From NCBI GenBank assembly GCA_947645675.1, contig CANSDP010000001.1, forward strand, positions 124,001 through 188,000: a stretch of 64,000 nt of DNA, written 5' to 3'. A model generated the notes under the pieces. It saw only the letters and a program-made list of their open reading frames with translations. It did no database searches and had not been told where the DNA came from. Below are positions 2,360 through 41,389 of this stretch, one piece after another (the stretch's first letter is position 1; each line of letters opens with the position of its first letter). The DNA is from an uncultured Bacillota bacterium. GTDB lineage: Bacteria; Bacillota; Clostridia; Oscillospirales; Oscillospiraceae. The position numbers and the translations under genes are program-made.

Positions 2360-2548
2360 TTAAAAACAAAGTTCTCTCTTGTCATAATAATGGTACATAG
2401 ATGGTCGTGAAATGGAGGTTTTCTCAGCAATTGTGGCCAGTGCAATGGATTCGTAGCTCATTGTTATGAACTGCTCTTTCGCCGCGGCCAGAATTTCCTG
2501 TTTCCTTGCGGCAAGCTCTTCATCGGTTCGCGCCCTGATCTTTCCCAT
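2360..2548 (-). pseudogene. TetR/AcrR-family regulator, N-terminal DNA-binding fragment only
   Basis: 62 residues. After MGKIRARTDEELAARKQEIL the fragment carries a complete TetR helix-turn-helix (AATIAEKTSISRPSMYHYY-like: IALATIAEKTSISRPSMYHYY), then stops at KRELCF. The roughly 130-residue ligand-binding and dimer domain is missing, and I do not see it in another frame before 2250. It is divergent from the aldo/keto reductase at 2700, the usual place for a TetR repressor, so it probably once controlled that gene. With no dimer domain it should not work as a normal TetR. Confidence 0.7.
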
Positions 2549-2599
2549 GATTTCGCCTCTTCGCCCTGTTTTTGATTCAGGATATCATATAAAAAGACT

Positions 2600-2665
2600 T
2601 GCGTCAACGCATAGACGACAAGCTGTTCGTTCTGCATTGACAAACCGTTGGTTATATGATAGGAT
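2600..2665 (+). promoter_or_regulatory. Promoter and candidate TetR operator of the aldo/keto reductase
   Basis: TTGACA (2637-2642), a 17-base spacer and TAGGAT (2660-2665). Just upstream lies the inverted repeat TGCGT-CA-ACGCA (2600-2611), inside a looser symmetry between CTTGCGTC and GACGACAAG. Position and symmetry fit an operator for the adjacent, now truncated, TetR gene. Confidence 0.55.
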
Positions 2666-2699
2666 ACCCCATCACACGAATCAACAAGGAGGAACAGGT

Positions 2700-3821
2700 A
2701 TGAAAAAATTAGGCTTTGGACTTATGCGCCTGCCGCAGCTTGACCAGGCAAATGCCGCCTCGGTGGATGTGGAGCAGGTGAAAAAAATGGTGGACCGGTT
2801 TATTGAAAAAGGCTTTACCTACTTCGATACGGCATGGATGTATGCCGGATTTGCCAGCGAGAGCGTGGCCAAGGAAGCCCTGGTGGACCGTTATCCGCGT
2901 GACAGCTTCACCCTGGCGACCAAACTCCATGCCGGTTTCTTCGATTCGCCGGAGGACTGTGATAAAGTGTTTCAGGAGCAGCTCAAAAAGACCGGCGCGG
3001 GTTATTTCGACTACTACCTCCTGCACGGCGTTGACAAGGAAAACCTTTCAAAGTATGAAAAATACGACTGTTTCCACTGGCTGTTGGAGAAAAAAGAGCG
3101 GGGGCTTGTAAAGCACACCGGCTTTTCTTATCATGGCGATGCCGAGTGTCTGGATGGAATTTTGACAAAGCATCCGGAAATGGAATTTGTGCAGTTACAG
3201 ATCAACTATCTCGACTGGGAGAGCGAGTGGATTCAAAGCCGCGCAAACTATGAGGTCTGCGTGCGCCACGGCAAGCCGGTCATTGTGATGGAACCGGTCA
3301 AAGGCGGTTCTCTGGCCCGTGTGCCGGTGGAAGCGGAAAAGCTGTTTCGCGCTGCGGCGCCGGATCGTTCCATCCCCAGTTGGGCCATCCGTTTTGCGGC
3401 ATCGCTGCCCAATGTTATGGTGGTGCTGTCCGGTATGAGCAGCATGGAACAGATGGAGGACAATCTCTCCTATATGGACGAATTTATCCCCCTCAGCGAG
3501 GAAGAACAAAAACTATGTTTTCGGGCGGGCGGCATCATCAACGCACAGATTGCCGTCCCCTGCACCGGCTGCTCCTACTGCACAGAGGGCTGTCCGGTCC
3601 ACATCGCTATCCCTCAGTATTTCTCGCTCTATAATGAGATCATGCGGGAAGATATGGAGCGGAAGGGGTGGACCGTTTCGTTCTCCAGCTATGGCGCTCT
3701 GGCGCAGACCCACGGCAAAGCGTCGGAGTGTATTGCCTGCGGCCAATGCGAGGGGATCTGTCCCCAGCGTCTGCCGGTTATTGAGCATTTGAAGAGCGTG
3801 TCCGCCAAATTTGACCATTAG
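2700..3821 (+). CDS. Aldo/keto reductase with C-terminal two-cluster ferredoxin domain
   Basis: 373 residues from ATG 2700 (AAGGAGG 8 bases upstream); a longer in-frame start at 2466 lies upstream of the promoter and is rejected. The first ~280 residues form an AKR barrel with the expected Asp/Tyr (FDTAWMYAG), Lys (LATKLHAGF) and His (LLHGVD). The C-terminus has two 4Fe-4S motifs, CTGCSYCTEGCPVHI and CIACGQCEGICPQRLPV. Relatives with this architecture are common in anaerobes and are annotated as Fe-S aldo/keto reductases, presumably passing electrons between the clusters and a flavin- or NAD-type partner. The substrate is unknown. The gene is monocistronic, with a TetR remnant on the other side of its promoter. 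Confidence 0.9.
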   Translation: MKKLGFGLMRLPQLDQANAASVDVEQVKKMVDRFIEKGFTYFDTAWMYAGFASESVAKEALVDRYPRDSFTLATKLHAGFFDSPEDCDKVFQEQLKKTGAGYFDYYLLHGVDKENLSKYEKYDCFHWLLEKKERGLVKHTGFSYHGDAECLDGILTKHPEMEFVQLQINYLDWESEWIQSRANYEVCVRHGKPVIVMEPVKGGSLARVPVEAEKLFRAAAPDRSIPSWAIRFAASLPNVMVVLSGMSSMEQMEDNLSYMDEFIPLSEEEQKLCFRAGGIINAQIAVPCTGCSYCTEGCPVHIAIPQYFSLYNEIMREDMERKGWTVSFSSYGALAQTHGKASECIACGQCEGICPQRLPVIEHLKSVSAKFDH

Positions 3822-15529: not shown

Positions 15530-17761
15530 TCATGTATTCTGGTGATCGCTGTAGCTTGACTGAGGCGTCCGGCGGTTTTTCCGGAAACAGGCGTCGCACA
15601 GCCGCCCCCGGTGGTGGAGGGGGAGGGCCTTGCCGCACCGGGCGCAGAAACGGATGTTGCTGCGCAGGTGGTGGAGCAGAATTTCATTGATCTCATCGGC
15701 CACCCGCTCCCGGCTGTCATAGAGCTTGTCCTCGTCCACAGGACAGCCGAAGGTCTTGGCGAAGGAGAAATAGAGGTCCAGCTTTTTGTAGTACAGCTCC
15801 AGCTCGGGCAGGGTGGCCTCCTCCTCGGAAAGGCCGGGCTGTTCTACCGCCTCCCCCTGCTGCCAGCGGCGGAGGAGCTGGAAAAACAGCTCCCGCAGGG
15901 CCTCTTCGGTCTCGTCAAAGGGGATGTTGGCGGCGCGGAGCTCCTGCTCCTTGGACAGGAGAAAGCCCATCTCCCGCAGCTTGGAGATGATGGTGATATA
16001 TCGGGTGATGTCCAGCTTTTGATAGGGCTCCGCCGTGGGCATCTGGTTCCACTGGGTCAGGACCTCCAAAAGGTCGAAATCCACCTGGAGGACCAGGTCG
16101 GAGAAGCCGGCCACGGCGTATTCCAGGGGCGGGACCACCGCCTCCAGCCCTGCCCGAATGGCGGGCAGGTTCTGGGTGGCCCCCACGAAGCCCTTGCTGT
16201 ACATCCCAAACCGCCCCGCCCGTCCGGCGATCTGTTTGATCTCCTCCGGCTTCAGCTCCCGGCGCTCAATGCCGTCGAACTTCTCCGTCTCCATAAAGAT
16301 GACGCGCCGGATGGGCAGGTTCAGCCCCATGCCGATGGCGTCGGTGGAAACCACGTACTCCATCCGTCCCTCCAGAAAGCCCTCCATCTGCTTCCGGCGG
16401 GTGGCGTAGGGGAGGGCGCCGTAGATAATGGCCGGCTCCTTGCCGCTCTGGCGCAGGTCCTCCGCCACGCTGAGCACCCCCACCTTGGAGAAGGTAATGA
16501 GGGCGTCCCCCGGCTGGACCCGCTGGTAGTCGATGGTGTGGGACATGCAGATCAGCGGGGTGGTCCGCTGGTGGACCTCCACCGTATAGCTGTCTCCGCA
16601 GCTCTCGATGAGGCGGATGAGCAGCTCCTTGGCCTCGGGGGCGGCGCACAGGTGGACCTCCGGGGCCAGGACGCCCAGGATGGCCCGGGTCCAGGCATAG
16701 CCCCGCTGGCGGTCGGAGATCATCTGGCACTCGTCGATGACGGCCACCTCATAGCGCTGCTTCAGGTCCAGCTTTTCCGCCGTGGCGGCGACGTGGGTGT
16801 CCTCCTCCCGCCGGTCCTCCTCCTCCCCGGTGGACAGGGAGCACTCCACCCCCGCGTCTAAGAGGGTCTCCTGGGCCTCCAGGGCCAGCAGGCGCAGAGG
16901 GGCCAGATAGACCCCCGTTTTGGCCCGGATCAGCCGCTGAAAGCCGGTGTAGGTCTTGCCGGTGTTGGTGCCCCCCAGGTGGAGGACAAAGCGGCGGTGC
17001 ATGCTGCGGGCCTCGGGGTACTCGTCCTTGGGGTTCAGGGCGATGAGCAGGGACAGGCTGGTGCGGATGGCCTGGGGGACATACCACACCGACCAGACGG
17101 TGCCCAGACCCTCGGCCAGCAGCTGACGGGCGGGAAAGCCCTCCGCCCGGAGGAAGGCGTCCAGGTCGGCCTCGGGCTGTGCCTCGGAGAAAGCGGCGAG
17201 GACCTGCTTGGCGGTGTTGAGCAGCACCCGGGGATAGCGCTCAGAGACCCGGGCCGCTCTGGGATGGTCGGGGTAGTCCCCCAGCCAGGCCCAGGCCTTG
17301 GTGAAGCCGCGGAAAATGTCCTGGAGCCGCTTGCCGTTGTACTGCTCCTCCAGAGAGAGAAACTCGTCAATCCGGGAGGTGATCTGAGAGGAGCGCAGGC
17401 CCTTGCTGTTCTTAGCCGCCGGGAGCCGGGCGGTGATGGCGGCGTGGTAGTGGCTGGCCAGCAGCCAGGCCAGGGAGCTGTCGGGCTCCACGGCCTGCCA
17501 GGCCTGGTCCAGAATGGCCCGGGCCCGCTTGACCGACTGGGGGACGGGCCGCGCCGGACTGTCCGTCCCGCTCTTTCGGTTGGCGAATTGGGGGCCGCTC
17601 TCCGCCAGCAGCACGTCCTCTCTGTTCCAGACCCGGACAGGCCGTCCGCCGCGCATGAAAAAGAGGGGCTTGGGGAGCAAGGCCCTCATCAGCTCTGTGG
17701 TCCAGCCCCGCCGCTTCAGCGTGGGTACCGTCCAAAAATTATCCCGGTTCTGTCTGGACAT
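15530..17761 (-). CDS. SUV3-like superfamily 2 RNA helicase with C-terminal zinc ribbon
   Basis: 743 residues from ATG 17761 (GGGGGAA 7 bases upstream, promoter at 17811-17839). A ~250-residue helical N-terminus precedes the helicase core: Walker A HLGGTNTGKTYTGFQRL, motif II VIDECQMISD (DEIH/DEAH variant), motif VI QIAGRAGRFG, and METEKFDGIERRELKPEEI. This set matches the SUV3/Ski2-like group, known from mitochondria as an RNA-degradosome helicase and present in some bacteria with little study. The C-terminus carries four Cys as CARCGK and CDACFRK, a zinc ribbon. Likely roles are RNA unwinding or decay; no nuclease partner is adjacent. Confidence 0.85.
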   Translation of the reverse strand: MSRQNRDNFWTVPTLKRRGWTTELMRALLPKPLFFMRGGRPVRVWNREDVLLAESGPQFANRKSGTDSPARPVPQSVKRARAILDQAWQAVEPDSSLAWLLASHYHAAITARLPAAKNSKGLRSSQITSRIDEFLSLEEQYNGKRLQDIFRGFTKAWAWLGDYPDHPRAARVSERYPRVLLNTAKQVLAAFSEAQPEADLDAFLRAEGFPARQLLAEGLGTVWSVWYVPQAIRTSLSLLIALNPKDEYPEARSMHRRFVLHLGGTNTGKTYTGFQRLIRAKTGVYLAPLRLLALEAQETLLDAGVECSLSTGEEEDRREEDTHVAATAEKLDLKQRYEVAVIDECQMISDRQRGYAWTRAILGVLAPEVHLCAAPEAKELLIRLIESCGDSYTVEVHQRTTPLICMSHTIDYQRVQPGDALITFSKVGVLSVAEDLRQSGKEPAIIYGALPYATRRKQMEGFLEGRMEYVVSTDAIGMGLNLPIRRVIFMETEKFDGIERRELKPEEIKQIAGRAGRFGMYSKGFVGATQNLPAIRAGLEAVVPPLEYAVAGFSDLVLQVDFDLLEVLTQWNQMPTAEPYQKLDITRYITIISKLREMGFLLSKEQELRAANIPFDETEEALRELFFQLLRRWQQGEAVEQPGLSEEEATLPELELYYKKLDLYFSFAKTFGCPVDEDKLYDSRERVADEINEILLHHLRSNIRFCARCGKALPLHHRGRLCDACFRKNRRTPQSSYSDHQNT

Positions 17762-17810
17762 GAAGCGTTCCCCCTTTCTGGCAAAATTTGAGCTCTGTTG
17801 AGCACTGTAT

Positions 17811-17839
17811 AGTATAGCCCAGAAAGGGAGAATCTTCAA
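17811..17839 (-). promoter_or_regulatory. Promoter of the SUV3-like helicase
   Basis: On the minus strand, TTGAAG (17834-17839), a 17-base spacer and TATACT (17811-17816), about 50 bases upstream of the ATG. Confidence 0.65.
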
Positions 17840-17899
17840 CGAAAAATTTTCGGGGGACAGGGTAATTGAATGAGCAAACAAATTGTGAACGGCCGGGGT

Positions 17900-18063
17900 C
17901 CAAAAGCCTCCCTCTTGGAGGGAGGTGGCACGGCGAAGCCGTGACGGAGGGAGTCCTCCGGAGGTTTGCGGGGGTGACTCCCTCAGTCAGCTTCGCTGAC
18001 AGCTCCCTCGGGGAGGGAGCCTTTGGGTGCGGTTTGCAGGGGCGGCCACAGGCCGCCCCTGCA
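17900..18063. repeat. Cluster of intergenic palindromic repeats
   Basis: The gap between the helicase and glpK (17762-18079) holds three fold-back elements and no gene. One, at 17901-17956, contains CCTCCCTC/GGAGGGAGG arms and GGCACGGCGAAGCCGTGACG. The second, at 17976-18025, contains CTCCCTCAGTCAGCTTCGC, TGACAGCTCCCTC and GAGGGAGCC. The third, at 18035-18063, is a perfect inverted repeat TGCAGGGGCGGCC-ACA-GGCCGCCCCTGCA. Elements of this kind are very common between genes of gut Oscillospiraceae. They could act as terminators for glpK (minus strand) or be REP-like mobile repeats. Confidence 0.8.
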
Positions 18064-18079
18064 TGAAATCCGCGAATGT

Positions 18080-19582
18080 TTAGGCTTCCTCCTCCTTCGC
18101 CCAGCCGTAGGAGCAGCGGACGGCCCGGTCCCAGCCCCGGATGCGGACGGCACGCTCCTCCTCGGAGAGGGAGGGGAGGAAGGTGCGGTCGGTGGCCCAG
18201 TTTTGCCGGACCTCCTCCTTGCCGGACCAGTAGCCCACCGCCAGGCCGGCCAGATAGGCCGCTCCCATAGCGGTGGTCTCCACGCAGGCGGGCCGGTTGA
18301 CAGGCGCGCCGCTGATGTCCGCCTGGAGCTGCATGAGCAGATTGTTGGCGCTGGCTCCGCCGTCGGCCTTGAGGGCGGCCAGCTCCACGCCGGAGTCGGC
18401 CCGCATGGCTTGAAGCACGTCGTTGACCTGATAGCACATGGACTCCAGGGTGGCCCGGATGATGTGGTATTTGTTCACCCCCCGGGTGAGCCCCACAATG
18501 GTCCCTCGGGCATACTGGTCCCAGTGGGGAGCCCCCAGGCCGGTGAAGGCGGGGACCACATAGCAGCCGTTGGTGTCGTTCACCTTCCGGGCCATATATT
18601 CGGAGTCGGCGGAGGAGTCGATGAACCGCAGCTCGTCCCGCAGCCACTGGATGGAGGCCCCGGCCACAAAGATGGAGCCCTCCAAGGCGTACTCCACCCT
18701 GCCGTCCAGCCCCCAGGCGATGGTGGTGACCAGACCGTTTTTGGAAAAGACAGGCTTCTCCCCCACGTTCATCAGGAGGAAGCAGCCGGTGCCGTATGTA
18801 TTTTTGGCCTCACCGGGGGTGAAGCAGGTCTGACCGAAAAGGGCGGCCTGCTGGTCTCCCGCCGCCCCGGCAATGGGGATGGGTCCGCCGAAGAATTGGG
18901 GGTCGGCCTCGCCGTAGATACAGCTGGAGGGCTTCGCCTGGGGCAGCATAGCCGCCGGAATGTTCAGCTTGGCCAGGATATCCCGGTCCCACTCCAGGGT
19001 GTTGATGTTGAACATCATGGTGCGGGAGGCGTTGGAGTAGTCGGTGACGTGGACCCGGCCCTTGGTCAATTTCCAGATCAGCCAGCTCTCCACCGTGCCG
19101 AAGAGGAGCTCGCCCCGCTCCGCCCGCGCCCGGGCGCCGGGCACGTTGTCCAGAATCCATTTCAGCTTGGTGCCGGAAAAATAGGCGTCGATAATCAGGC
19201 CGGTTTTGGCGCGGAAGTCCTCCGCCAAGCCCTCGGCCTTCAGGCTGTCGCAGTATCCGGCGGTGCGGCGGCACTGCCACACGATGGCCCGGCTCACAGG
19301 CTCGCCGGTCTGCCGGTCCCAGACGATGGTGGTCTCCCGCTGGTTGGTGATGCCGATGGCCGCGATGTCCGCGGCGGAGGCGTTCAGGTTGCGCATGGCC
19401 TCCTGAGCTACCTCCAGCTGGATGGACCAGATCTCCTCCGCGTCGTGCTCCACCCATCCGGGCTTGGGAAAGTACTGGGTGAACTCCTTCTGGGCCGAGC
19501 CGCACATCTCGCCCCTCCTGTTGAACAGGATGCACCGGCAGCTGGTGGTTCCGGAATCCAGGGCCATAATATATTGTGCCAT
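18080..19582 (-). CDS. glpK: Glycerol kinase GlpK
   Basis: 500 residues from ATG 19582, 8 bases after AGGAGG; an ATG six bases earlier (19588) is only 2 bases from it and is less likely. Product: ATP-dependent phosphorylation of glycerol in the cytoplasm. The FGGY fold is complete: [62 protein letters not shown] and [12 protein letters not shown]. In many low-GC Firmicutes a His in a Y-H-F-Y-G context is phosphorylated by HPr to activate GlpK. The matching segment here reads DPQFFGG (Gln near residue 229), so this switch looks absent. It lies downstream of a PTS enzyme-I-like gene on the same strand. Confidence 0.93.
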
Positions 19583-19648
19583 TGCCATGTCCTCCTTTTT
19601 CTGTGTTGGTTATGAAAACAGCCCCTCCGCCCGCGGCTGGAGAGGCTG

Positions 19649-20410
19649 CTATGCATGAATCAGAGCGGAGCCCTTGGGCCGTCCGTTGGCCTGGTACAGC
19701 TCCCGCAGCTGGTTGAGCTGCTCCGGCCCTGGGTCTACGTAGATATTGCCGGTGTAGCCGTCCATCACGGCCAGGTGGCCCTCCCATTTGGGAATCAGGT
19801 CCACCTCCACAATGGCGGGGATGTGATAGGCCCGGACCAGCATAGCGGTGTGGCTGTCCAAGCTGCCCTTCCGGGTGATGAGGCCCAGAAGCCGCCGCTG
19901 GTCGAAGTCCATCACCTCGCTGGGAAGGAAGTCCTCGGAAACCAGAATGGCGGGCTCGTCCATCAGGAGGGTCTGGCGGCCCCCCATCAGCGCCCGGAGC
20001 ACCCGCTGGGAGATGTCCCGGATGTCCGCCGACCGGGCCTGCATGTAGGGGCTGTCCATAGCGGAGAAAGCGGCGGAGAAGCTGATCTCCGCCATCTGAA
20101 CGGCGTATTCCGCCGTGACGCCCTGGCCGTTGATCAGGCCCCGGACGGTCTCCACATAGTCGTGGTCCTCCAGAAGCATCCCGTGGATCAGGAAGATGGA
20201 GGCCACCCCCTCGCCCACCTGGTTCAGCGCCCGGTGATAGAGGGTGTTCAGCTCCAGAATGGCCAGCTGCTGGGCCCGGTGGAAGCGGTTGATCTCCTGC
20301 CTCCAGTCCCCCAGCGTGTAAAGCTGAACCTGGGGCGCGGGGCGGCGGTATACGCACAGCCTTCCTGCTACGATCTGCTCCATAATTGCCTTGCCGGATA
20401 AGATATGCAC
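19649..20410 (-). CDS. Stand-alone PTS enzyme I N-terminal (phospho-His) domain protein
   Basis: 253 residues from GTG 20410 (GGGAGG 8 bases upstream, good promoter at 20459-20487). It matches only the first half of enzyme I: the HPr-binding helical region (INRFHRAQQLAILELN, MLLEDHDYVETVRGLI) and the swivelling phospho-His domain with GLITRKGSLDSHTAMLVRAY, whose His is the phosphorylation site. The PEP-binding TIM barrel is entirely missing and the gene ends cleanly. Such a domain cannot take phosphate from PEP alone. It could relay phosphate between HPr-like and other partners, as the EI-like part of DhaM does, or act as a sensor. It precedes glpK by 67 bases, so a role in glycerol/dihydroxyacetone control is inferred. 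Confidence 0.75.
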   Translation of the reverse strand: MHILSGKAIMEQIVAGRLCVYRRPAPQVQLYTLGDWRQEINRFHRAQQLAILELNTLYHRALNQVGEGVASIFLIHGMLLEDHDYVETVRGLINGQGVTAEYAVQMAEISFSAAFSAMDSPYMQARSADIRDISQRVLRALMGGRQTLLMDEPAILVSEDFLPSEVMDFDQRRLLGLITRKGSLDSHTAMLVRAYHIPAIVEVDLIPKWEGHLAVMDGYTGNIYVDPGPEQLNQLRELYQANGRPKGSALIHA

Positions 20411-20458
20411 TCCGCCACCTCCCTTTGCTGAACACGGCTCGCTTCTTGTAATTTAGCT

Positions 20459-20487
20459 ATTATAGCGCCCCGGGCCCTGTTTGTAAA
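20459..20487 (-). promoter_or_regulatory. Promoter of the EI-like / glpK transcript
   Basis: On the minus strand, TTTACA (20482-20487), a 17-base GC-rich spacer and a perfect TATAAT (20459-20464), about 50 bases before the GTG start. Confidence 0.7.
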
Positions 20488-20546
20488 GGTAAGTAATTTC
20501 CAATTCGGCTATCTTTACTTAAAATTTATTTGGAGGAGGACGGAAC

Positions 20547-21098
20547 TCATTTATGGTTCGGGAAAAGCCGGGGGTACCAGTCTGCCATAAACTCAGACCT
20601 TGGCATGGTGTAGATCTCGCGGTAGAGTTTTCCATGGACCCTCCGCAGGTCAAAGAGGATAGGGTCCCTCTCCGGCATATTTGCCAGCCCATGTACTTTT
20701 CGCCGAAGCTTCTCAAAGCTGACGTCGTCCTCGCTGTCCTGATAGATGATAAGCAGGACCAGATGCTCCCGAGACTCGTCCACAGACATCTCCTGTTCGA
20801 AGGCCAGACGGAACAGGTGAAAGCTTTGAAAGGCTTTCCGGGCGAGCTGAGCCGCATCAACTTTTTTGGAGGGCTGATTTTTAAACTCTAAAAGATAATA
20901 GGTCCCGTCCCGTTCCAGAAGGCCGTCGCAGGAGGCCGCCTCTTCTCTGCGCTGAAGCTGCTTGCACAGATACTTTTTGATGCTGTCAAAATTGTAAAGT
21001 ATATCGTCCGTGTCGACCAGGGAAACTGTCTTGGAGTCATCCAGGGATACCTTGCTCAACGGCTGCAGGTACGCCTGTTTATTAGGTAAAAAATCCAT
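20547..21098 (-). CDS. PD-(D/E)XK nuclease-like protein, partner of an ATPase
   Basis: 183 residues from ATG 21098, 2 bases after the stop of the ATPase gene, with GAGGAG inside that gene's end, so translation is coupled. The centre has a nuclease-type motif: Asp58 in SCDGLLERDG and Glu71-x-Lys73 in YYLLEFKNQ, on consecutive predicted strands, followed by an amphipathic helix (AAQLARKAFQSFHLF). This D-(12)-ExK spacing fits the PD-(D/E)XK fold of restriction-type nucleases. The C-terminus (RRVHGKLYREIYTMPRSEF) is unassigned. No signal or membrane segment is present. With the upstream OLD-like ATPase it forms a two-gene unit. A defence or nuclease-effector role is inference. Confidence 0.7.
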   Translation of the reverse strand: MDFLPNKQAYLQPLSKVSLDDSKTVSLVDTDDILYNFDSIKKYLCKQLQRREEAASCDGLLERDGTYYLLEFKNQPSKKVDAAQLARKAFQSFHLFRLAFEQEMSVDESREHLVLLIIYQDSEDDVSFEKLRRKVHGLANMPERDPILFDLRRVHGKLYREIYTMPRSEFMADWYPRLFPNHK

Positions 21099-21100
21099 AG

Positions 21101-22339
21101 CTACAGCTCCTCAAGGGGTAGGTACAGGTCGCGAAAAATCTGCTCCGTATTGCCGGTCACGTCCACGACCTGATACATCCCATGATTGCCGGGCCTCGTC
21201 TGGTAAAAATGGCAGCGGTCGGCGATTTCATAGCGCTGAGAGTACACCTCCACCGCACGGACGAAATAGGGGCTATGGGAGTTTAAAAATATCTTCAGGC
21301 CTAACTCCTTATGGAGGATGACCAGCACGTTGGCCAGTGTGAGCTGCCACGCCGGATGCAGATTGACCTCCGGCTCGTCAATAATCAGCGTGTGGTTTTT
21401 GTAAAACTGCCCGTTTTCCAGTAAGCGTCTGATTACGGCAAAGGTCTTGTTGCCCGAGGCGAGGTTCTTGAGGGAGATTAAGGAGAACTGCTCGTCCATG
21501 TATTGCAGGGAGCTTCCGTTTTCCACCAGGCCGCCCCGGATCGCCTTGTTGATGATAGCAATGACCCGCTCTGACCGCTCCTGGTCCTCAATGGTTCTAT
21601 CTGCCAGCTGATTTTTTTCGTTTGCCAGCAGGTCGTTGACCAGCGGTTCCAGAATACGGATACTGCTTTTTCTGGACAGGTCGTCCAAAGCGTGCTTTGG
21701 CTCCAGGTAGATCGGCCTGGATTCCTTGATGGCGTTATAGGAGCAGTTTGTGACCTTATTCCCCTTAAGCTTCACATAGCAAATGACAGTTCCGCTGTCG
21801 TCCCGCAGAGTGATGGTACCGACCGATGTCTGACCAAGGGTATTGACTTGGCGGTCGAAAACCTCGCGGATATTGGACTCCACCAGAAATTGTATGTGCT
21901 CCTCCAAGGGGCGGCTGAGGGCCCGCTGCATTTGTCCAAGGAAGTCCTGGTATAATTCCTCCGTTTCGGCGGAAGGCTCGGGAAAGTCTTCGTGCATATC
22001 TGAGACATAGAGTAGGAACAGGTCAGGGAAGGGCTTGTAATTGCTGGGCAAGCTGACATCCTTGGACAGAATGGCCTGAATAAGGTTGCGGTTATTCCGC
22101 ATATAGAGTCCCTCTTCGGGGATCAGCTCCTCAATAAAACTGTCTATGATGGAGTCGATGCTTCTGATCTGAGAATTATGAGCCCGCTGATGGATATTTG
22201 TATAGGCGCGGATAATTCCGCTCAGGGATTTGCTGATGGTGCTTTTGCCGGTGGCGTTGTAGCCCGCCAGCACGGAGATCCCGTCCACAGCCACCTCGGC
22301 GGATTCGATTTTAGCGATGTTTTGGACATAAAGCTTCAT
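21101..22339 (-). CDS. AAA/ABC-type ATPase (OLD-like, AAA_15/AAA_21 group)
   Basis: 412 residues from ATG 22339 (AAGGAGA 5 bases upstream; a -10-like TATAAT lies at 22395-22400). Walker A is GYNATGKST (residues 26-34). After a ~250-residue helical insertion come a signature-like NLASGNKTF (~292), Walker B LIIDEPEVNLHP (Asp321-Glu322) and the switch His in LNSHSPYF (His355). This is the layout of RecF/OLD-type ATPases that partner with nucleases in several known phage-defence systems. There is no TOPRIM domain at the C-terminus, which is short (YQVVDVTGNTEQIFRDLYLP). The two genes have clearly lower GC than the surrounding region, suggesting horizontal acquisition. Confidence 0.8.
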   Translation of the reverse strand: MKLYVQNIAKIESAEVAVDGISVLAGYNATGKSTISKSLSGIIRAYTNIHQRAHNSQIRSIDSIIDSFIEELIPEEGLYMRNNRNLIQAILSKDVSLPSNYKPFPDLFLLYVSDMHEDFPEPSAETEELYQDFLGQMQRALSRPLEEHIQFLVESNIREVFDRQVNTLGQTSVGTITLRDDSGTVICYVKLKGNKVTNCSYNAIKESRPIYLEPKHALDDLSRKSSIRILEPLVNDLLANEKNQLADRTIEDQERSERVIAIINKAIRGGLVENGSSLQYMDEQFSLISLKNLASGNKTFAVIRRLLENGQFYKNHTLIIDEPEVNLHPAWQLTLANVLVILHKELGLKIFLNSHSPYFVRAVEVYSQRYEIADRCHFYQTRPGNHGMYQVVDVTGNTEQIFRDLYLPLEEL

Positions 22340-22509
22340 AGTAATCTCCTTAACCTTCGCAAGACACGGGGAATTTGCTGAAAATCTTCCATACATTATA
22401 ACAGAGACCGGGTACCTTTATACAAAATCAGTCTATCACAAAATTCCCCGCTTTACAAGCGGCCAAGCGAATTTGGCCGGGATGTTTTACCTCGCCGTCC
22501 ATATTTTGC

Positions 22510-22538
22510 TTTACTCCGGTAAACCGCTGTGCTATAAT
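22510..22538 (+). promoter_or_regulatory. Promoter of the aminotransferase gene
   Basis: TTTACT (22510-22515), a 17-base spacer and a perfect TATAAT (22533-22538), 45 bases upstream of the ATG. Confidence 0.65.
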
Positions 22539-22582
22539 AGCGGCAATTACCAAAGCGGAGAAAACATATGGAGGTTTGTTTC

Positions 22583-23764
22583 ATGGTATCTGAACGTATG
22601 AAGGGGCTGGGCACCGCCCGGTCGGTGATTCGGGAGCTGTTTGAATACGGCAAGCTGCGGGCCGCCCAGGTGGGGCCGGAGAATGTCTTTGATTTCTCCA
22701 TCGGCAACCCCAGCGTCCCCTCTCCCGCCGCCGTCAATGAGGAGGCCGTCCGCCTGCTCAAAGAGCAGCCCGATCTCATCCACGCCTACACCAGCGCCCA
22801 GGGGGACCAGGAGTCCCGCCAGCGATTTGCCGATTCCCTGAACCGGCGCTTTGGCACCAGCTACACCGCCGGTCAGCTCTATCTCACCGTGGGAGCCGCC
22901 GCCTCCCTGTGCTGTGTGCTCAACGGCCTGAGCTGTCCCGGGGATGAGTTTATTGTCTTTGCCCCCTATTTCCCGGAGTATAAGGTGTTCATCGAGGGGG
23001 CCGGGGCCAGGATGGTCCTTGTTCCCCCGGAGGTGGAGCGCTTTCAGATCGACTTCGGCGCCTTTGAGCGGGCTGTCGGCGAGCACACCAAGGGGGTGCT
23101 TATCAACTCCCCCAACAACCCCTCCGGCGTGGTCTACTCCCGGCAGACGCTGGAGCGGCTGGCCGGTATCCTGACCGAGAAGAGCCGGGAGTACGGCCAC
23201 CCCATCTACCTCATCTCCGACGAGCCCTACCGGGAGATCGTCTATGCCGGGGTGGAGGTGCCCTGGGTGCCCAGCGTGTACCGGGACACCATTGTGTGCT
23301 ACTCCTTCTCCAAGTCCCTGTCCCTTCCAGGCGAGCGCATCGGCTATGTGCTGGTGCCGGGGGAGGTTACGGACAGCGGCGATGTCTACGCCGCCGTGGC
23401 CGGGGCGGGCCGGTCCCTGGGCTACGTGAACGCCCCCAGCCTGTTCCAGCGGGTCACCTCCCTGTGCTGCGACATGACCTCCGATATCAAGGTCTATGAG
23501 GAGAACGCGAAGATTCTTGTAACTGCCCTGCGGGAGATGGGCTACCATGTGGCGGAGCCCAACGGGGCCTTCTATCTCTTCCCCCGCACCCTGGAGCCAA
23601 ACGATCTGGCCTTCTGTGAGCGGGCCAAGAAGCTGGACCTGCTCATTGTCCCCGGCACCGGCTTCGGGGCCCCCGGCCACACCCGTATTTCCTACTGTGT
23701 CCAGACCGACATGATCCGCCGCTCCCTGCCCAAATTCCGGGAGCTGGCCGAGTCCTACCGCTGA
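22583..23764 (+). CDS. PLP-dependent class I/II aminotransferase
   Basis: 393 residues from ATG 22583, which follows GGAGG by 8 bases; an upstream in-frame ATG (22568) would contain that site. The fold-type I features appear in order: FDFSIGNPSVPSP near the N-terminus, HAYTSAQGDQESRQ, LTVGAAASL, SPNNPSGVVYSRQTL (Asn contacting PLP), LISDEPYREIVY (Asp and Tyr), and YSFSKSLSLPGERIGYV with the Schiff-base Lys. The C-terminal Arg contacting the carboxylate fits HTRISYC. Family relatives act on aspartate, aromatic or branched substrates; specificity is not clear here. The gene is monocistronic, with its own promoter and a terminator at 23773. Confidence 0.9.
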   Translation: MVSERMKGLGTARSVIRELFEYGKLRAAQVGPENVFDFSIGNPSVPSPAAVNEEAVRLLKEQPDLIHAYTSAQGDQESRQRFADSLNRRFGTSYTAGQLYLTVGAAASLCCVLNGLSCPGDEFIVFAPYFPEYKVFIEGAGARMVLVPPEVERFQIDFGAFERAVGEHTKGVLINSPNNPSGVVYSRQTLERLAGILTEKSREYGHPIYLISDEPYREIVYAGVEVPWVPSVYRDTIVCYSFSKSLSLPGERIGYVLVPGEVTDSGDVYAAVAGAGRSLGYVNAPSLFQRVTSLCCDMTSDIKVYEENAKILVTALREMGYHVAEPNGAFYLFPRTLEPNDLAFCERAKKLDLLIVPGTGFGAPGHTRISYCVQTDMIRRSLPKFRELAESYR

Positions 23765-23772
23765 TGCTACGA

Positions 23773-23808
23773 CACCGGCCCGCCCTCAAAAATGGGGACG
23801 GGCCGGTG
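23773..23808. terminator. Bidirectional terminator
   Basis: CACCGGCCCG (23773-23782) pairs with CGGGCCGGTG (23799-23808), with CCC/GGG extending the stem. It separates the convergent aminotransferase and minus-strand hypothetical gene; T runs are weak on both sides. Confidence 0.6.
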
Positions 23809-23813
23809 AAGCT

Positions 23814-24617
23814 TTATCTGCGGCCGGCCCGCTGCTCCTGGCGGCGCTGGATGCCGGTCTGGGCGGCGTAGGGGCCGATCTCGGCCCAGGGGGCCAGGAA
23901 GGTGCGGATGCCCAGCCGGCGGGCCACCTCCGTCTTGTGCCGCAGGGTGTCTCCGTCGTCGAAGAGGACGAAGTGGGCCCCGTTCTCCCGGCTCATATAG
24001 GTGAAGTACCGGGCGCACAGCTCCCCGGAGAAGAAAACGGAGGGGGACAGCCGCCGCTTCAGCTCGGCCAGCTCCTGGTCGGTGAGGGGCTGGCCGCTTC
24101 CGGTGGGGGAGGGGAGGTAGAAGTCCTCCGCCCGCTTCTCCAGGGCCAGGACCACCCGGCTCTCTCCAAAGCGCTCCAGGGCTTCCTCCAGCCGCTTCTG
24201 GAGGGAGCCCCCCGACAGGGCGGAGGGGATCATCACCCGGGAGTGGGGGGCATGGGCCCCGTACCGCTCCGGCACCAGGAGGGTCCAGCCCCGGCGGGCA
24301 AACTGCTCGTCCAGGCGGGCCGCGATCTGCTCCAGGGGGGGCAGGCAGTTTTCAAAGTCCAGAATGGCCCCGGAGAAGCTCCGGGCCTGACACTCCCGAA
24401 TGACCTCCTGGCACAGTGGACCGGTGGGGGCCAGCGGGCTGAACTCCTGGTCGTCCACCACCATCAGCCCGCCCTTGGGGGGCGCTGTTCCCTCAGACCG
24501 GAACAGATGGGCCCCCGGCCCCAGCCGGTAGGCCAGATGGGCCGGTGTGACCCGCCACCCCTGAAGCAGAGGCAGCTGCCTGGGCGGCAGGGTGATGATA
24601 AAAGTGTCCTGTGCCAT
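23814..24617 (-). CDS. Hypothetical protein, glycoside-hydrolase-like barrel (267 aa)
   Basis: It starts at ATG 24617 with GGGGG about 5 bases upstream. No signal peptide is seen. Segments such as SGAILDFENCLPPLEQIA, WTLLVPERYGAHAPHSRVMI, FGESRVVLALEKRAEDFYL, AHFVLFDDGDTLRHKTEVA and IRTFLAPWAEIGPYA follow the alternating strand/helix pattern of TIM barrels, with a D-F-E-N segment reminiscent of GH18/GH25-like folds. No certain catalytic pair can be named. It is divergent from the yqeG cluster. Function unknown. Confidence 0.65.
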   Translation of the reverse strand: MAQDTFIITLPPRQLPLLQGWRVTPAHLAYRLGPGAHLFRSEGTAPPKGGLMVVDDQEFSPLAPTGPLCQEVIRECQARSFSGAILDFENCLPPLEQIAARLDEQFARRGWTLLVPERYGAHAPHSRVMIPSALSGGSLQKRLEEALERFGESRVVLALEKRAEDFYLPSPTGSGQPLTDQELAELKRRLSPSVFFSGELCARYFTYMSRENGAHFVLFDDGDTLRHKTEVARRLGIRTFLAPWAEIGPYAAQTGIQRRQEQRAGRR

Positions 24618-24629
24618 GGGACTACCCCC

Positions 24630-24658
24630 TTGTCCGAAGTTTCGTCCTGTGATATACT
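24630..24658 (+). promoter_or_regulatory. Promoter of the yqeG-nfo-pepP operon
   Basis: TTGTCC (24630-24635), a 17-base spacer and TATACT (24653-24658), 41 bases before the ATG of the YqeG-type gene. Confidence 0.65.
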
Positions 24659-24698
24659 ACGTTGTACACAGTATGAAATCAGGCGAGAGGTTAGAACT

Positions 24699-38457: not shown

Positions 38458-38528
38458 CGTATTTATGCGGTAAAATGATCCGGACAGAGAAAATGAGAGC
38501 AAGGGACTGATTTCTGATTTCGGAACTG

Positions 38529-38557
38529 TGGACATATTGGAAATTTTATGTTATAAT
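38529..38557 (+). promoter_or_regulatory. Promoter of the PPC/SLH surface protein
   Basis: TGGACA (38529-38534), a 17-base AT-rich spacer and a perfect TATAAT (38552-38557), 60 bases before the ATG. Confidence 0.7.
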
Positions 38558-38617
38558 TCATACATCTGTATAAAGGCGGAGTCTCAGAAAACATTTATTT
38601 TGGAGGAGGTTACTATT

Positions 38618-40978
38618 ATGAGGAAAAGTAAATCCAATCCAGCTGCCCGCTGGCTCCTGCGGGGTATCACGGCGGCATGTCTGGCCGCGTTTTTGTGCGT
38701 GCCTGCGCTAGCCGCCGCGGAAGCGGAGGAAAACGACAGTATTGAGACCGCAAACGCGATCTCGGTGAACTCAGAGGTCAGCGGGTCAATCAGCAAGTCG
38801 TCTGATGTGGACTGGTTCGTGTTTCAGATTCCCGAGGATGGCGTGATCTCGCTGACGTTTGACCATGATTATGTGGACAGTTCCAGTTATTATTGGGGAA
38901 CGTACTTTTTCACAAGTGAAAATAAGCAGTTATCCGGCTGGCGGTGGGCCGGAAACACCATGTCGGCAAAGACAGCAGGTAATATTGGCGTGGCGGCAGG
39001 CACTTATTATCTTCGAGTCACTGACGATAGTTACTATTCTGCCGAAAACTACCGTTTTACTGTAAATTATACCCAATCTGACAGCTGGGAAAAGGAATTT
39101 AATGAAACAATAGTTACTGCAAATACAATTCCTGTAAATACGAAAATTTCCGGAAGTATGATGACCAGTTCTGACGTTGACTGGTACAAGTTTGAACTAC
39201 CTGAAGATGGCACAATATCACTTACTTTCGAGCATGATTATGTGGACAGTTCCAGCTATTATTGGTCGACATACTTCTATACAAATGAAAATAAGCAGCT
39301 GTCCGGCTGGCGGTGGGCGGGAAATGCAGTGTCTGCAAGAACAGGCGGCAGTATTGGCTTGGCTGCGGGTACATATTATCTTCGTGTCGTTGATGATAGT
39401 TACTATTCTTCCGCTGTTTACTCTTTTACGGTAAACTACACTCCGTCCAATACTTGGGAAAAGGAGTTTAATGAGATTATTACTGCGGCCAACACGATCC
39501 AAACAGATGTGGAGATGTTGGGGAGCATCATGACCAGTTCAGATGTTGACTGGTATAAGTTTGAGATACCTGAAAACGGAACAATATCAATTACTTTTGG
39601 ACATGATTTTGTTGACAGCTCTAGCCTCTATTGGAATACAGCTTTCTACACAAGCGAAAATAAAAAATTAGCTGACTGGCGGTGGAAAGGAAATGCCACA
39701 TCGGATGAAACGGGGAGTGGGATTGGTATTCCTGCGGGTACATATTATCTCCGCATTGCGGATGACAGCTATTATTCTAATGCGACCTATCACTTCACTG
39801 TAAATTATAATTCTGGCTCAGGGAGCGATGTTCCGGGGCCGGGCGGGGATGAACAGCAGCCGGAACCGCCTGTTGTAAAGCCCAGCGAGGTAGTACTGAA
39901 CAAGAGCCGGCTTTCCCTTTCTGTGGGGGAATCGTCGGTACTGACCGCCGAGGTTTTGCCGTCTGACGCGGCGAACAAGACCATCACATGGCGGAGCGGG
40001 AACACGAAGGTGGCAACAGTGTCCAACGGCAGAGTGACCGCCGTTGGGGAAGGCAGTACAACCATCACCGCGTCCTGCGGTGACGCGTCTGCCTCATGTA
40101 CGGTGACTGTGGAGCAAGAAGAGGTCAAAGTAACCGGTATTTCCTTGAACAAGAAGTCTCTCTCACTGAAGGTTGGAGAAACGGCGGCGCTCAGCGCGGC
40201 GGTGACGCCCTCCAACGCGACAGACGAAAACATTGTGTGGCGGAGCGAAGACAAGAAGGTAGCCACGGTGGCCAACGGCAAGGTGACTGGAGTTGGAAAA
40301 GGCACTACGACAATCACAGCTTCCTGTGGCGATATGACCGCGTCCTGCTCTGTCTCTGTTGTGGAGGAGAAGCCCCGGTCCGAGGTGCATTTTGAGCGGG
40401 TAACCATATATTTTCAGGACCAGTTCACCGACGTGCCAGCGAATCAATGGTACACAAGCAGCGTGGCCGAGGCCTTTGAGTTGGGGCTGATGGTGGGGGA
40501 CAGCAAGACCACATTCAACCCCTACGGCGATGTAACCATTGCCGAGGCCGTGACGATGGCGGCCCGCATCCACAGTATTTACGTTCAGGACAACGAGACC
40601 TTCAGCCAGACCGGCGGCGAGTGGTATCAGGTCTACCTGGACTATGCCTATGAAAAGGGGATCATCAGTCGGGCCTATTATAATTGTGATGTTACACGGA
40701 AGGCCTCTCGGGCGCAGTTTGCGGAAATTTTCTCCAACTCCCTGCCCTCTGAGGCGCTGGCTGCGGTCAACGATGTGGCGGACGGGGCAATTCCAGACGT
40801 CAAAATGGGGGACCGGTACGCGGAATATATTTATACGCTCTATCGCGCGGGTATTCTGGCCGGCAGTGATGCCAATGGGACCTTCAACCCCACGACCTAT
40901 ATTACCCGAGCTGAGGCCGCCGCGATTGTATCCCGCATGGCGGAATCGGATAACCGTATTTCGGTCACGCTGAGATAA
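38618..40978 (+). CDS. Surface protein: three PPC-like repeats, two BIG2 domains, SLH anchor
   Basis: 786 residues from ATG 38618 (GGAGGAGG 8 bases upstream). A signal peptide (WLLRGITAACLAAFLCVPAL, cut near ALA-A) is followed by three ~125-residue repeats, each with SSDVDWF/YKFEIPE, SGWRWAGN and AGTYYLRV-DDSYYS, resembling pre-peptidase C-terminal domains. After a Gly/Pro/Glu linker come two bacterial Ig-like (BIG2) domains (KSLSLKVGETAALSAAVTP and its partner). The C-terminus has SLH motifs (FTDVPANQWYTSSVAEAFE, FNPTTYITRAEAAAI) that anchor proteins to the wall. The repeats are about 45-50% GC, lower than the BIG2 region, suggesting a separate origin. Ligand unknown. Confidence 0.88.
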   Translation: MRKSKSNPAARWLLRGITAACLAAFLCVPALAAAEAEENDSIETANAISVNSEVSGSISKSSDVDWFVFQIPEDGVISLTFDHDYVDSSSYYWGTYFFTSENKQLSGWRWAGNTMSAKTAGNIGVAAGTYYLRVTDDSYYSAENYRFTVNYTQSDSWEKEFNETIVTANTIPVNTKISGSMMTSSDVDWYKFELPEDGTISLTFEHDYVDSSSYYWSTYFYTNENKQLSGWRWAGNAVSARTGGSIGLAAGTYYLRVVDDSYYSSAVYSFTVNYTPSNTWEKEFNEIITAANTIQTDVEMLGSIMTSSDVDWYKFEIPENGTISITFGHDFVDSSSLYWNTAFYTSENKKLADWRWKGNATSDETGSGIGIPAGTYYLRIADDSYYSNATYHFTVNYNSGSGSDVPGPGGDEQQPEPPVVKPSEVVLNKSRLSLSVGESSVLTAEVLPSDAANKTITWRSGNTKVATVSNGRVTAVGEGSTTITASCGDASASCTVTVEQEEVKVTGISLNKKSLSLKVGETAALSAAVTPSNATDENIVWRSEDKKVATVANGKVTGVGKGTTTITASCGDMTASCSVSVVEEKPRSEVHFERVTIYFQDQFTDVPANQWYTSSVAEAFELGLMVGDSKTTFNPYGDVTIAEAVTMAARIHSIYVQDNETFSQTGGEWYQVYLDYAYEKGIISRAYYNCDVTRKASRAQFAEIFSNSLPSEALAAVNDVADGAIPDVKMGDRYAEYIYTLYRAGILAGSDANGTFNPTTYITRAEAAAIVSRMAESDNRISVTLR

Positions 40979-41026: not shown

Positions 41027-41375
41027 GCAGTAAGCTGGACAGCCGCGCGGGCGGGGCGAAAGGCCCGTCTGTGAGGAAAGTCCGGGCTCCGCAGGGCAAG
41101 GATAACGGGTAACACCCGCCGGGGGCGACCCTAGGAAAAGTGCAACAGAAATAGACCGCCTGTCCGCTAGGGCAGGTAAGGATGGAAAGGCGAGGTAAGA
41201 GCTCACCCAATGGCGTGGAAGCGTCCATTGCTGTAAACTCTATCCGGAGCAACGCCGTGGAGGGACATACAGGCCGGCCCGGCCGTCCCAGGGAGGCGGC
41301 TTGAGCGCACCGGCAACGGTGCGTCGAGATAGATGGCTGTCTTAAAAGACAGAACCCGGCTTACAGGCTTACTGC
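41027..41375 (+). ncRNA. rnpB: RNase P RNA, class A
   Basis: Catalytic RNA that removes 5' leaders from pre-tRNAs. Helix P1 is formed by GCAGTAAGC (41027-41035) and GCTTACTGC (41367-41375). Universal segments are present: GAGGAAAGTCCGGGCTCC near 41075, ACAGAAATAGACCGCC near 41145, and GAGATAGATGGCTGTC with ACAGAACCCGGCTTA before the 3' end. The length (~349 nt) and arrangement fit the ancestral class A type, not the Bacillus class B. It has its own promoter and terminator. Confidence 0.95.
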
Positions 41376-41389
41376 ACCAGAAGCAAATA

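Follow-up and report, generated by a model that had tools for sequence, protein, structure and literature searches.

The described systems closest to the gene pair analyzed here couple an ATPase of the OLD-ABC type to a small nuclease. WonAB, an OLD-ABC ATPase and a PD-(D/E)xK nuclease carried on the WASA-1 prophage of V. cholerae, is reported to abort phage infection, which takes both genes and an intact active site in each, point mutants of either the ATPase or the nuclease being inactive (PMC12137116). According to the same report, WonB is toxic only in dependence on WonA, simple sequestration was excluded by the authors, and genomic DNA stays intact while translation stops, the authors suggesting rRNA or tRNA as the target (PMC12137116). 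Its homologues are reported there mainly in Gram-negatives, and the system is tied to PD-T4-4 and to the "OLD-ABC ATPase + Novel REase" operon of a 2020 survey (PMC12137116; review PMC12409358), a class of Krishnan et al. 2020 (as cited in PMC12137116) with Anaerovibrio lipolyticus as the example. Accessions given there are AWB73975.1/AWB73976.1 for WonAB, SHI83489.1/SHI83462.1 for the Anaerovibrio pair and RCO57999.1/RCO57988.1 for PD-T4-4 (PMC12137116). PD-T4-4, recovered in a selection for anti-phage systems in E. coli, is listed as an ATPase with a PD(D/E)XK nuclease of family PF11645 (PMC10952713). OLD-ABC ATPases paired with HNH, PD-(D/E)XK or PIN nucleases have also been described in 594 taxa as auxiliaries of BREX or BREX-related systems and proposed as suicidal back-up effectors, in a paper which says that ATPase-nuclease couplings had earlier reports (PMC12839542). 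The OLD classes are covered in PMC10568477, and the HEC and PDC models of PADLOC are cited from a preprint in PMC12988326. Here we analyzed a window of 64,000 nucleotides from an uncultured Oscillospiraceae bacterium (Bacillota), part of a 2.46-Mb draft genome (G000:C1:124001-188000), in which an ATPase gene, P0002, is followed by a nuclease gene, P0001. In the literature searched we found no publication named for this exact family. Our analysis suggests that the pair is probably a phage-defence system, in which an ATPase sensor would switch on an abortive-infection nuclease.

We infer this anti-phage activity from the anatomy of the pair, the model folds, the conservation, the tight pairing, the presence or absence of the islet that carries the pair, and the location of some relatives on mobile elements. 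The two genes and their parts are listed below, with the number of aligned family members that keep each residue; "unbaited" residues are those outside the pattern used in the scans described later.

21101..22339, minus strand: P0002, OLD-type ABC ATPase, proposed sensor, 412 aa
22238..22264, minus strand: Walker A GYNATGKST, P0002 residues 26-34 (G31, K32 and T34 in 38/39; S33 in 36/39)
21374..21379, minus strand: Walker B Asp321-Glu322 of P0002 (39/39 each)
21275..21277, minus strand: switch His355 of P0002 (39/39)
20547..21098, minus strand: P0001, PD-(D/E)XK-like nuclease, proposed effector, 183 aa
20985..20987, minus strand: Asp38 of P0001, candidate motif I acid (39/39, unbaited), at the beginning of a modelled helix (37-47)
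20925..20927, minus strand: Asp58 of P0001, the acid ahead of strand 1 of the core hairpin (39/39, unbaited)
20880..20888, minus strand: Glu71-Phe72-Lys73 (ExK motif) of P0001 (7/7 unbaited; 39/39 overall)
20575..22499, no strand: islet of ~1.92 kb missing in the near relative G007, its left edge uncertain by some bases

The original prediction, which had been made from the letters and open reading frames of this DNA, proposed a module of an OLD-type ATPase without TOPRIM and a PD-(D/E)XK-like partner; its coordinates, Walker A at residues 26-34, Asp321-Glu322, His355, Asp58 and Glu71-x-Lys73 all lie where it put them. The assignment of P0002 was borne out. The protein matches the Pfam families AAA_21 (2.3e-12, residues 293-360) and AAA_15 (3.5e-11, residues 2-360), and its Walker and switch residues are kept in the family, the Walker B residues, the switch His and Gly296 being identical in 39/39 aligned ATPases. 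Its AlphaFold2 model (pLDDT 86.3) resembles OLD, Septu and Rad50 proteins as well as SMC and RecN, with PtuA as the top Foldseek match (3.1e-9, TM 0.42). There was no Pfam match to TOPRIM, and the protein ends at residue 412, soon past the ATPase match. P0002 also matches a nameless phage protein family, phrog_14430 (1.8e-33), and its PADLOC matches include HEC-02A (3.3e-22, the best), PD-T4-4_A (1.9e-19), AriA (8.8e-13) and PtuA (5.6e-12); HEC-02A matches 36/36 of the family ATPases, as several other PADLOC families do.

P0001 had no family match in Pfam or PHROGs at E<=1, its matches in NCBIfam were sub-threshold and those in PADLOC weak (PDC-M29B at 0.0021), and searches with its single sequence found nothing in viral contigs, plasmids, phages or, by sequence, the PDB. 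Its AlphaFold2 model (pLDDT 91) looks nuclease-like: the structure matches fit a PD-(D/E)XK nuclease collectively, though weakly, and the closest are mostly DNA endonucleases (EcoO109I, BspD6I, FokI). In the model, strands 59-63 and 66-73 form the core hairpin with Asp58 just before it, and the candidate active-site residues are probably Asp58, Glu71 and Lys73. Single members of the family matched Cas4_II, PDC-M29B, PDC-S18, PDC-S24, HamA, DruK, MTase_II and an "Effector" model, each weakly (E 3.6e-5 or worse).

Protein and profile searches recovered homologues in 3/149 relatives and 6/391 members of the class (own genome counted), and a pattern scan of named collections gave 35 loci in 84,980 genomes and another 2 in viral contigs. 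The latter 2 came from a scan for which a less diverged member served as lead, a first profile scan of the viral contigs having given none. Five duplicates with identical nuclease proteins were dropped (L017=L003, L022=L002, L030=L005, L035=L006 and L041=L007), leaving 41 distinct loci; two pairs found later, L092 and L100, bring the total to 43 loci, 41 of them with both genes. L004 was kept out of the sets A5 and A6, and L034 and L037 also out of A6. The family set is mainly from Bacillota, according to record labels, and the window pair is a diverged member, the nearest relatives found being 29% (P0001) and 31% (P0002) identical. Within the genus only 2/64 genomes carry the nuclease, own included, the other (G040) having a version 20-24% identical.

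Across this family the two genes are tightly linked, as the original prediction had proposed from the two bases between them. In the window, a 2-nt spacer separates the stop of P0002 from the start of P0001, in the order ATPase then nuclease, with a GAGGAG ribosome-binding-like stretch (by eye) inside the last P0002 codons; among homologues, the ATPase gene lies directly upstream on the same strand in 39/41 distinct loci. One of the two unpaired loci is a remnant (L008), and the other is a second copy with a stop within the match (L009); the latter accompanies the intact L006 pair in genome G439, and no ATPase lies in the ~1.5 kb of flank covered. In the class genomes, with up to 4 candidates per genome scored, an ATPase profile at 1e-40 selects 5/391, and these are the very genomes whose nuclease gene is intact; G405, the remaining genome of the six in the nuclease search, has a remnant and no ATPase match at 1e-40. 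ATPase and nuclease distances are correlated (r=0.81, n=38 pairs, L034 being left out as its ATPase is cut short), and 0/5000 permutations, uncorrected for relatedness, gave a value as high (maximum 0.38).

The residues that had been proposed as functional are near-invariant (Walker A 36-38/39, others 39/39). Asp58, Glu71 and Lys73 are identical in 39/39 aligned paired nucleases, as is Asp38. Since the pattern scans used EFKN as bait, Glu71 and Lys73 were baited for most loci, and independent evidence from the scanned loci comes from Asp38 and Asp58 alone; in the 7 nucleases found without this bait (the window and 6 others), Asp58, Glu71 and Lys73 are nevertheless all identical. Same-strand adjacent pairs in 39/41 loci, together with unbaited Asp38 and Asp58 in 39/39, exclude chance.

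The claim that the pair matches no known system did not stand, since WonAB, PD-T4-4 and the published OLD-ABC + PD-(D/E)XK pairs have the same layout. Compared by description, WonAB shares with our pair an operon of an ATPase followed by a small PD-(D/E)xK protein, and a distance of 33 residues from the catalytic Glu to the switch His (WonA E300/H333, P0002 E322/H355); with the relatives L045 and L046 it shares carriage by a prophage. The two differ in that WonB has 16.1 kDa and P0001 183 aa, and in that WonAB is reported mainly in Gram-negatives whereas our family is mainly from Bacillota. The "OLD-ABC ATPase + Novel REase" class has the same layout and fold classes, and a family member was found in 2/16 genomes from the genus to which Anaerovibrio sp. 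JC8 (L031) belongs; the P0001/P0002 family likely belongs to this class. The BREX-linked pairs are likened to ours by description, although no BREX genes were recognised beside the window pair. P0002 matches the PD-T4-4 ATPase, but the PD-T4-4 nuclease model matched 0/38 family members at E<=0.1. HEC-02B matches 6/38 family nucleases weakly (best 1.4e-5), but not P0001 at E<=1; a partial match to HEC-02B occurs at L047, where the ATPase has 306 aa and its short partner 93 aa.

Further known systems were considered and rejected because of the partner. Septu is closest to P0002 by Foldseek (PtuA), but its partner should be the HNH protein PtuB, and P0001 has a PD-(D/E)XK-like model and no HNH or PtuB match at E<=1. 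PARIS would require a TOPRIM (DUF4435) AriB partner, to which P0001 has no match at E<=1, though P0002 matches AriA. In Gabija and class 1 OLD, the ATPase is expected to carry a C-terminal TOPRIM, to which P0002 has no match, and Gabija adds a helicase; the nearest genes here are an aminotransferase and, by eye, a PTS-enzyme-I-like gene. From these comparisons, the pair is likely a diverged, Bacillota-centred relative of the published OLD-ABC + PD-(D/E)XK pairs.

The pair lies on an islet of ~1.92 kb that is present in the window and missing in a close relative. In G007, the flanks at 17007-20574 and 22500-24697 lie only 14 bases apart (L078), with identities of 95.4% and 96.8% over 3.6 kb and 2.2 kb and of 86% further out. 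In 8 of 9 further genus members, the same flanking genes adjoin with no room for the pair, and the flank matches end between 144 and 653 bases from each other (the left match being partial in L087); in the ninth member, L084, the left match is absent. This survey covered 10 relatives, mostly best matches, of the 39 genus members that bear the aminotransferase gene. The final ~30 nt of the nuclease gene resemble the empty site of G007, the similarity fading near 20580, so the last codons may derive from host sequence where the islet inserted, or G007 may have lost the pair and kept a scar; the junction may fit either gain by the window or loss in G007. We found no target-site duplication or terminal repeats at the islet edges; the matches seen were a direct one of 7 bp and an inverted one of 8 bp, which we take as chance.

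The original prediction had also called the two genes less GC-rich than all neighbours. This holds against the five nearest genes checked (GC 0.636-0.660 and GC3 0.733-0.881, versus 0.509 and 0.641 for P0001, and 0.522 and 0.700 for P0002), but is not unique in the window, where 4.3% of the stretches of 1.8 kb match it in AT-richness and two further low-GC stretches were listed; for this reason low GC alone was rejected as evidence. Across the family, GC is lower in the pair than in the flanks at 36/39 loci (exceptions L005, L006 and L036), a count made without a control gene set and with flanks of only 1.5-2.1 kb for L001-L007. Low-GC genes elsewhere in the window are, by eye, a gene for a surface protein with repeated pre-peptidase-, Ig- and SLH-like parts (38528-40978, GC 0.504) and an aldo/keto reductase with ferredoxin-like cysteine motifs (2466-3821).

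Regarding the mechanism, P0002 would form a dimer of the ABC type (OLD/PtuA/Rad50 fold) that holds P0001 silent in a complex and reacts to some infection cue; the activated P0001 would then cleave nucleic acid, so that the infected cell stops growing before it can produce phage. As WonB leaves DNA intact and stops translation, the likelier target of P0001 would be RNA, either rRNA or tRNA. A variant of this explanation, whose probability overlaps with it, is that the nuclease cuts DNA of phage or host, in a restriction-like or DNA-degrading abortive response triggered by DNA ends or replication intermediates. The structures nearest to the P0001 model, mostly DNA endonucleases, and the likeness of P0002 to Rad50, SMC and RecN point in this direction, but the fold does not fix the substrate and WonB spares genomic DNA, so we regard DNA cutting as possible but not favoured. 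The Rad50/SMC-like model would also suit a DNA-repair accessory of Rad50/Mre11 type with no immune role, and one pair (L022:2978-8091) has a metallophosphatase gene (sbcD-like) on one side and an SMC_N ATPase gene on the other, in a repair-like stretch that precedes an addA-like gene. The patchy distribution (2/64 genus and 6/391 class genomes), the lower GC than flanks in 36/39 loci and the prophage and relaxase neighbours at some loci make a repair role very improbable.

Neighbours of the relatives bear both on defence and on maintenance of a mobile element. In the prophage-like viral contigs L045 and L046 the pair is part of a lysogeny module, between a gene for an M78 (ImmA-like) protease and a large serine recombinase, L045 adding an HTH_3 gene, DnaB and a GH25 lysin. 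In L100 (MT835532.1, filed as Bacteriophage sp. / phage scaffold) the pair follows a MobL relaxase, so this record may be an integrative or mobilisable element, not a phage; in L013 a serine recombinase lies 1.3 kb upstream. These contexts, with the two-gene coupling and the nuclease in second position, would also suit a toxin-antitoxin or stabilisation module, in which the ATPase restrains a toxic nuclease and the benefit is maintenance of the islet. However, the toxicity of WonB needs WonA, sequestration was excluded for WonAB by its authors, and neither P0001 nor its L004 homologue has a match in 72,556 plasmid records; we consider such a module unlikely.

A mobile or defence-like setting was found in some relatives: the prophages, the MobL element and two islands, namely L038, with AbiH-like, reverse transcriptase and SLATT-like genes nearby, and L044, with a Septu-like ATPase+HNH pair and a DUF1016-like gene (both by eye). 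A plain picture of defence islands does not fit the rest: among the 31 named-genome loci whose neighbours were read by eye (in sets of 12, 10 and 9 loci), other defence genes were recognised in only 2, and most of the remaining loci look like lone islets among metabolic genes, so the housekeeping contexts that the original prediction named as counter-evidence were found in part. The 112 neighbour ORFs (open reading frames) scanned, of 136 listed, gave a single RT_UG17 match. Both Brachyspira loci share a setting beside lgt. By eye, a KptA/Tpt1-like RNA 2'-phosphotransferase gene (L015:8610-9155) begins ~18 nt past the nuclease stop, counted to its first possible start, and a macrodomain-like TIGR02452-type gene (L017:8574-9476; L003:2050-2955) ~30 nt past it; these may be accessory RNA-repair or ADP-ribose genes. 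A more specific proposal is that the 43 loci form a separate, mainly Bacillota immunity clade that responds to a trigger of its own and attacks RNA, RNA-repair-like or ADP-ribose-processing genes having been added in some members, and that its ATPase reads a DNA structure of Rad50 type formed in phage replication; we regard this as speculative and rather improbable.

In the window, a class I/II aminotransferase gene lies on the opposite strand upstream of the pair; downstream are a 253-aa same-strand gene, PTS-enzyme-I-like (by eye), and then an FGGY kinase. In a consensus scan, promoter-like sites precede both flanking genes (20487-20459, minus strand; 22510-22538, plus strand), and none was found just upstream of P0002. 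Elsewhere in the window, positions 41027-41379 encode a class A RNase P RNA (Rfam RF00010, 263 bits).

If the pair acts in phage defence as proposed, it would extend among Clostridia and other Bacillota a recently proven and poorly understood form of immunity, in which an ABC-ATPase sensor is coupled to a PD-(D/E)XK effector. The effector has no Pfam family, so annotation relying on Pfam would leave it nameless. The family offers a diverse set of ~40 natural pairs for which candidate catalytic residues are defined, together with one islet boundary and two prophage settings, and comparing such diverged pairs would make it testable what these ATPases sense and what the nuclease cuts.
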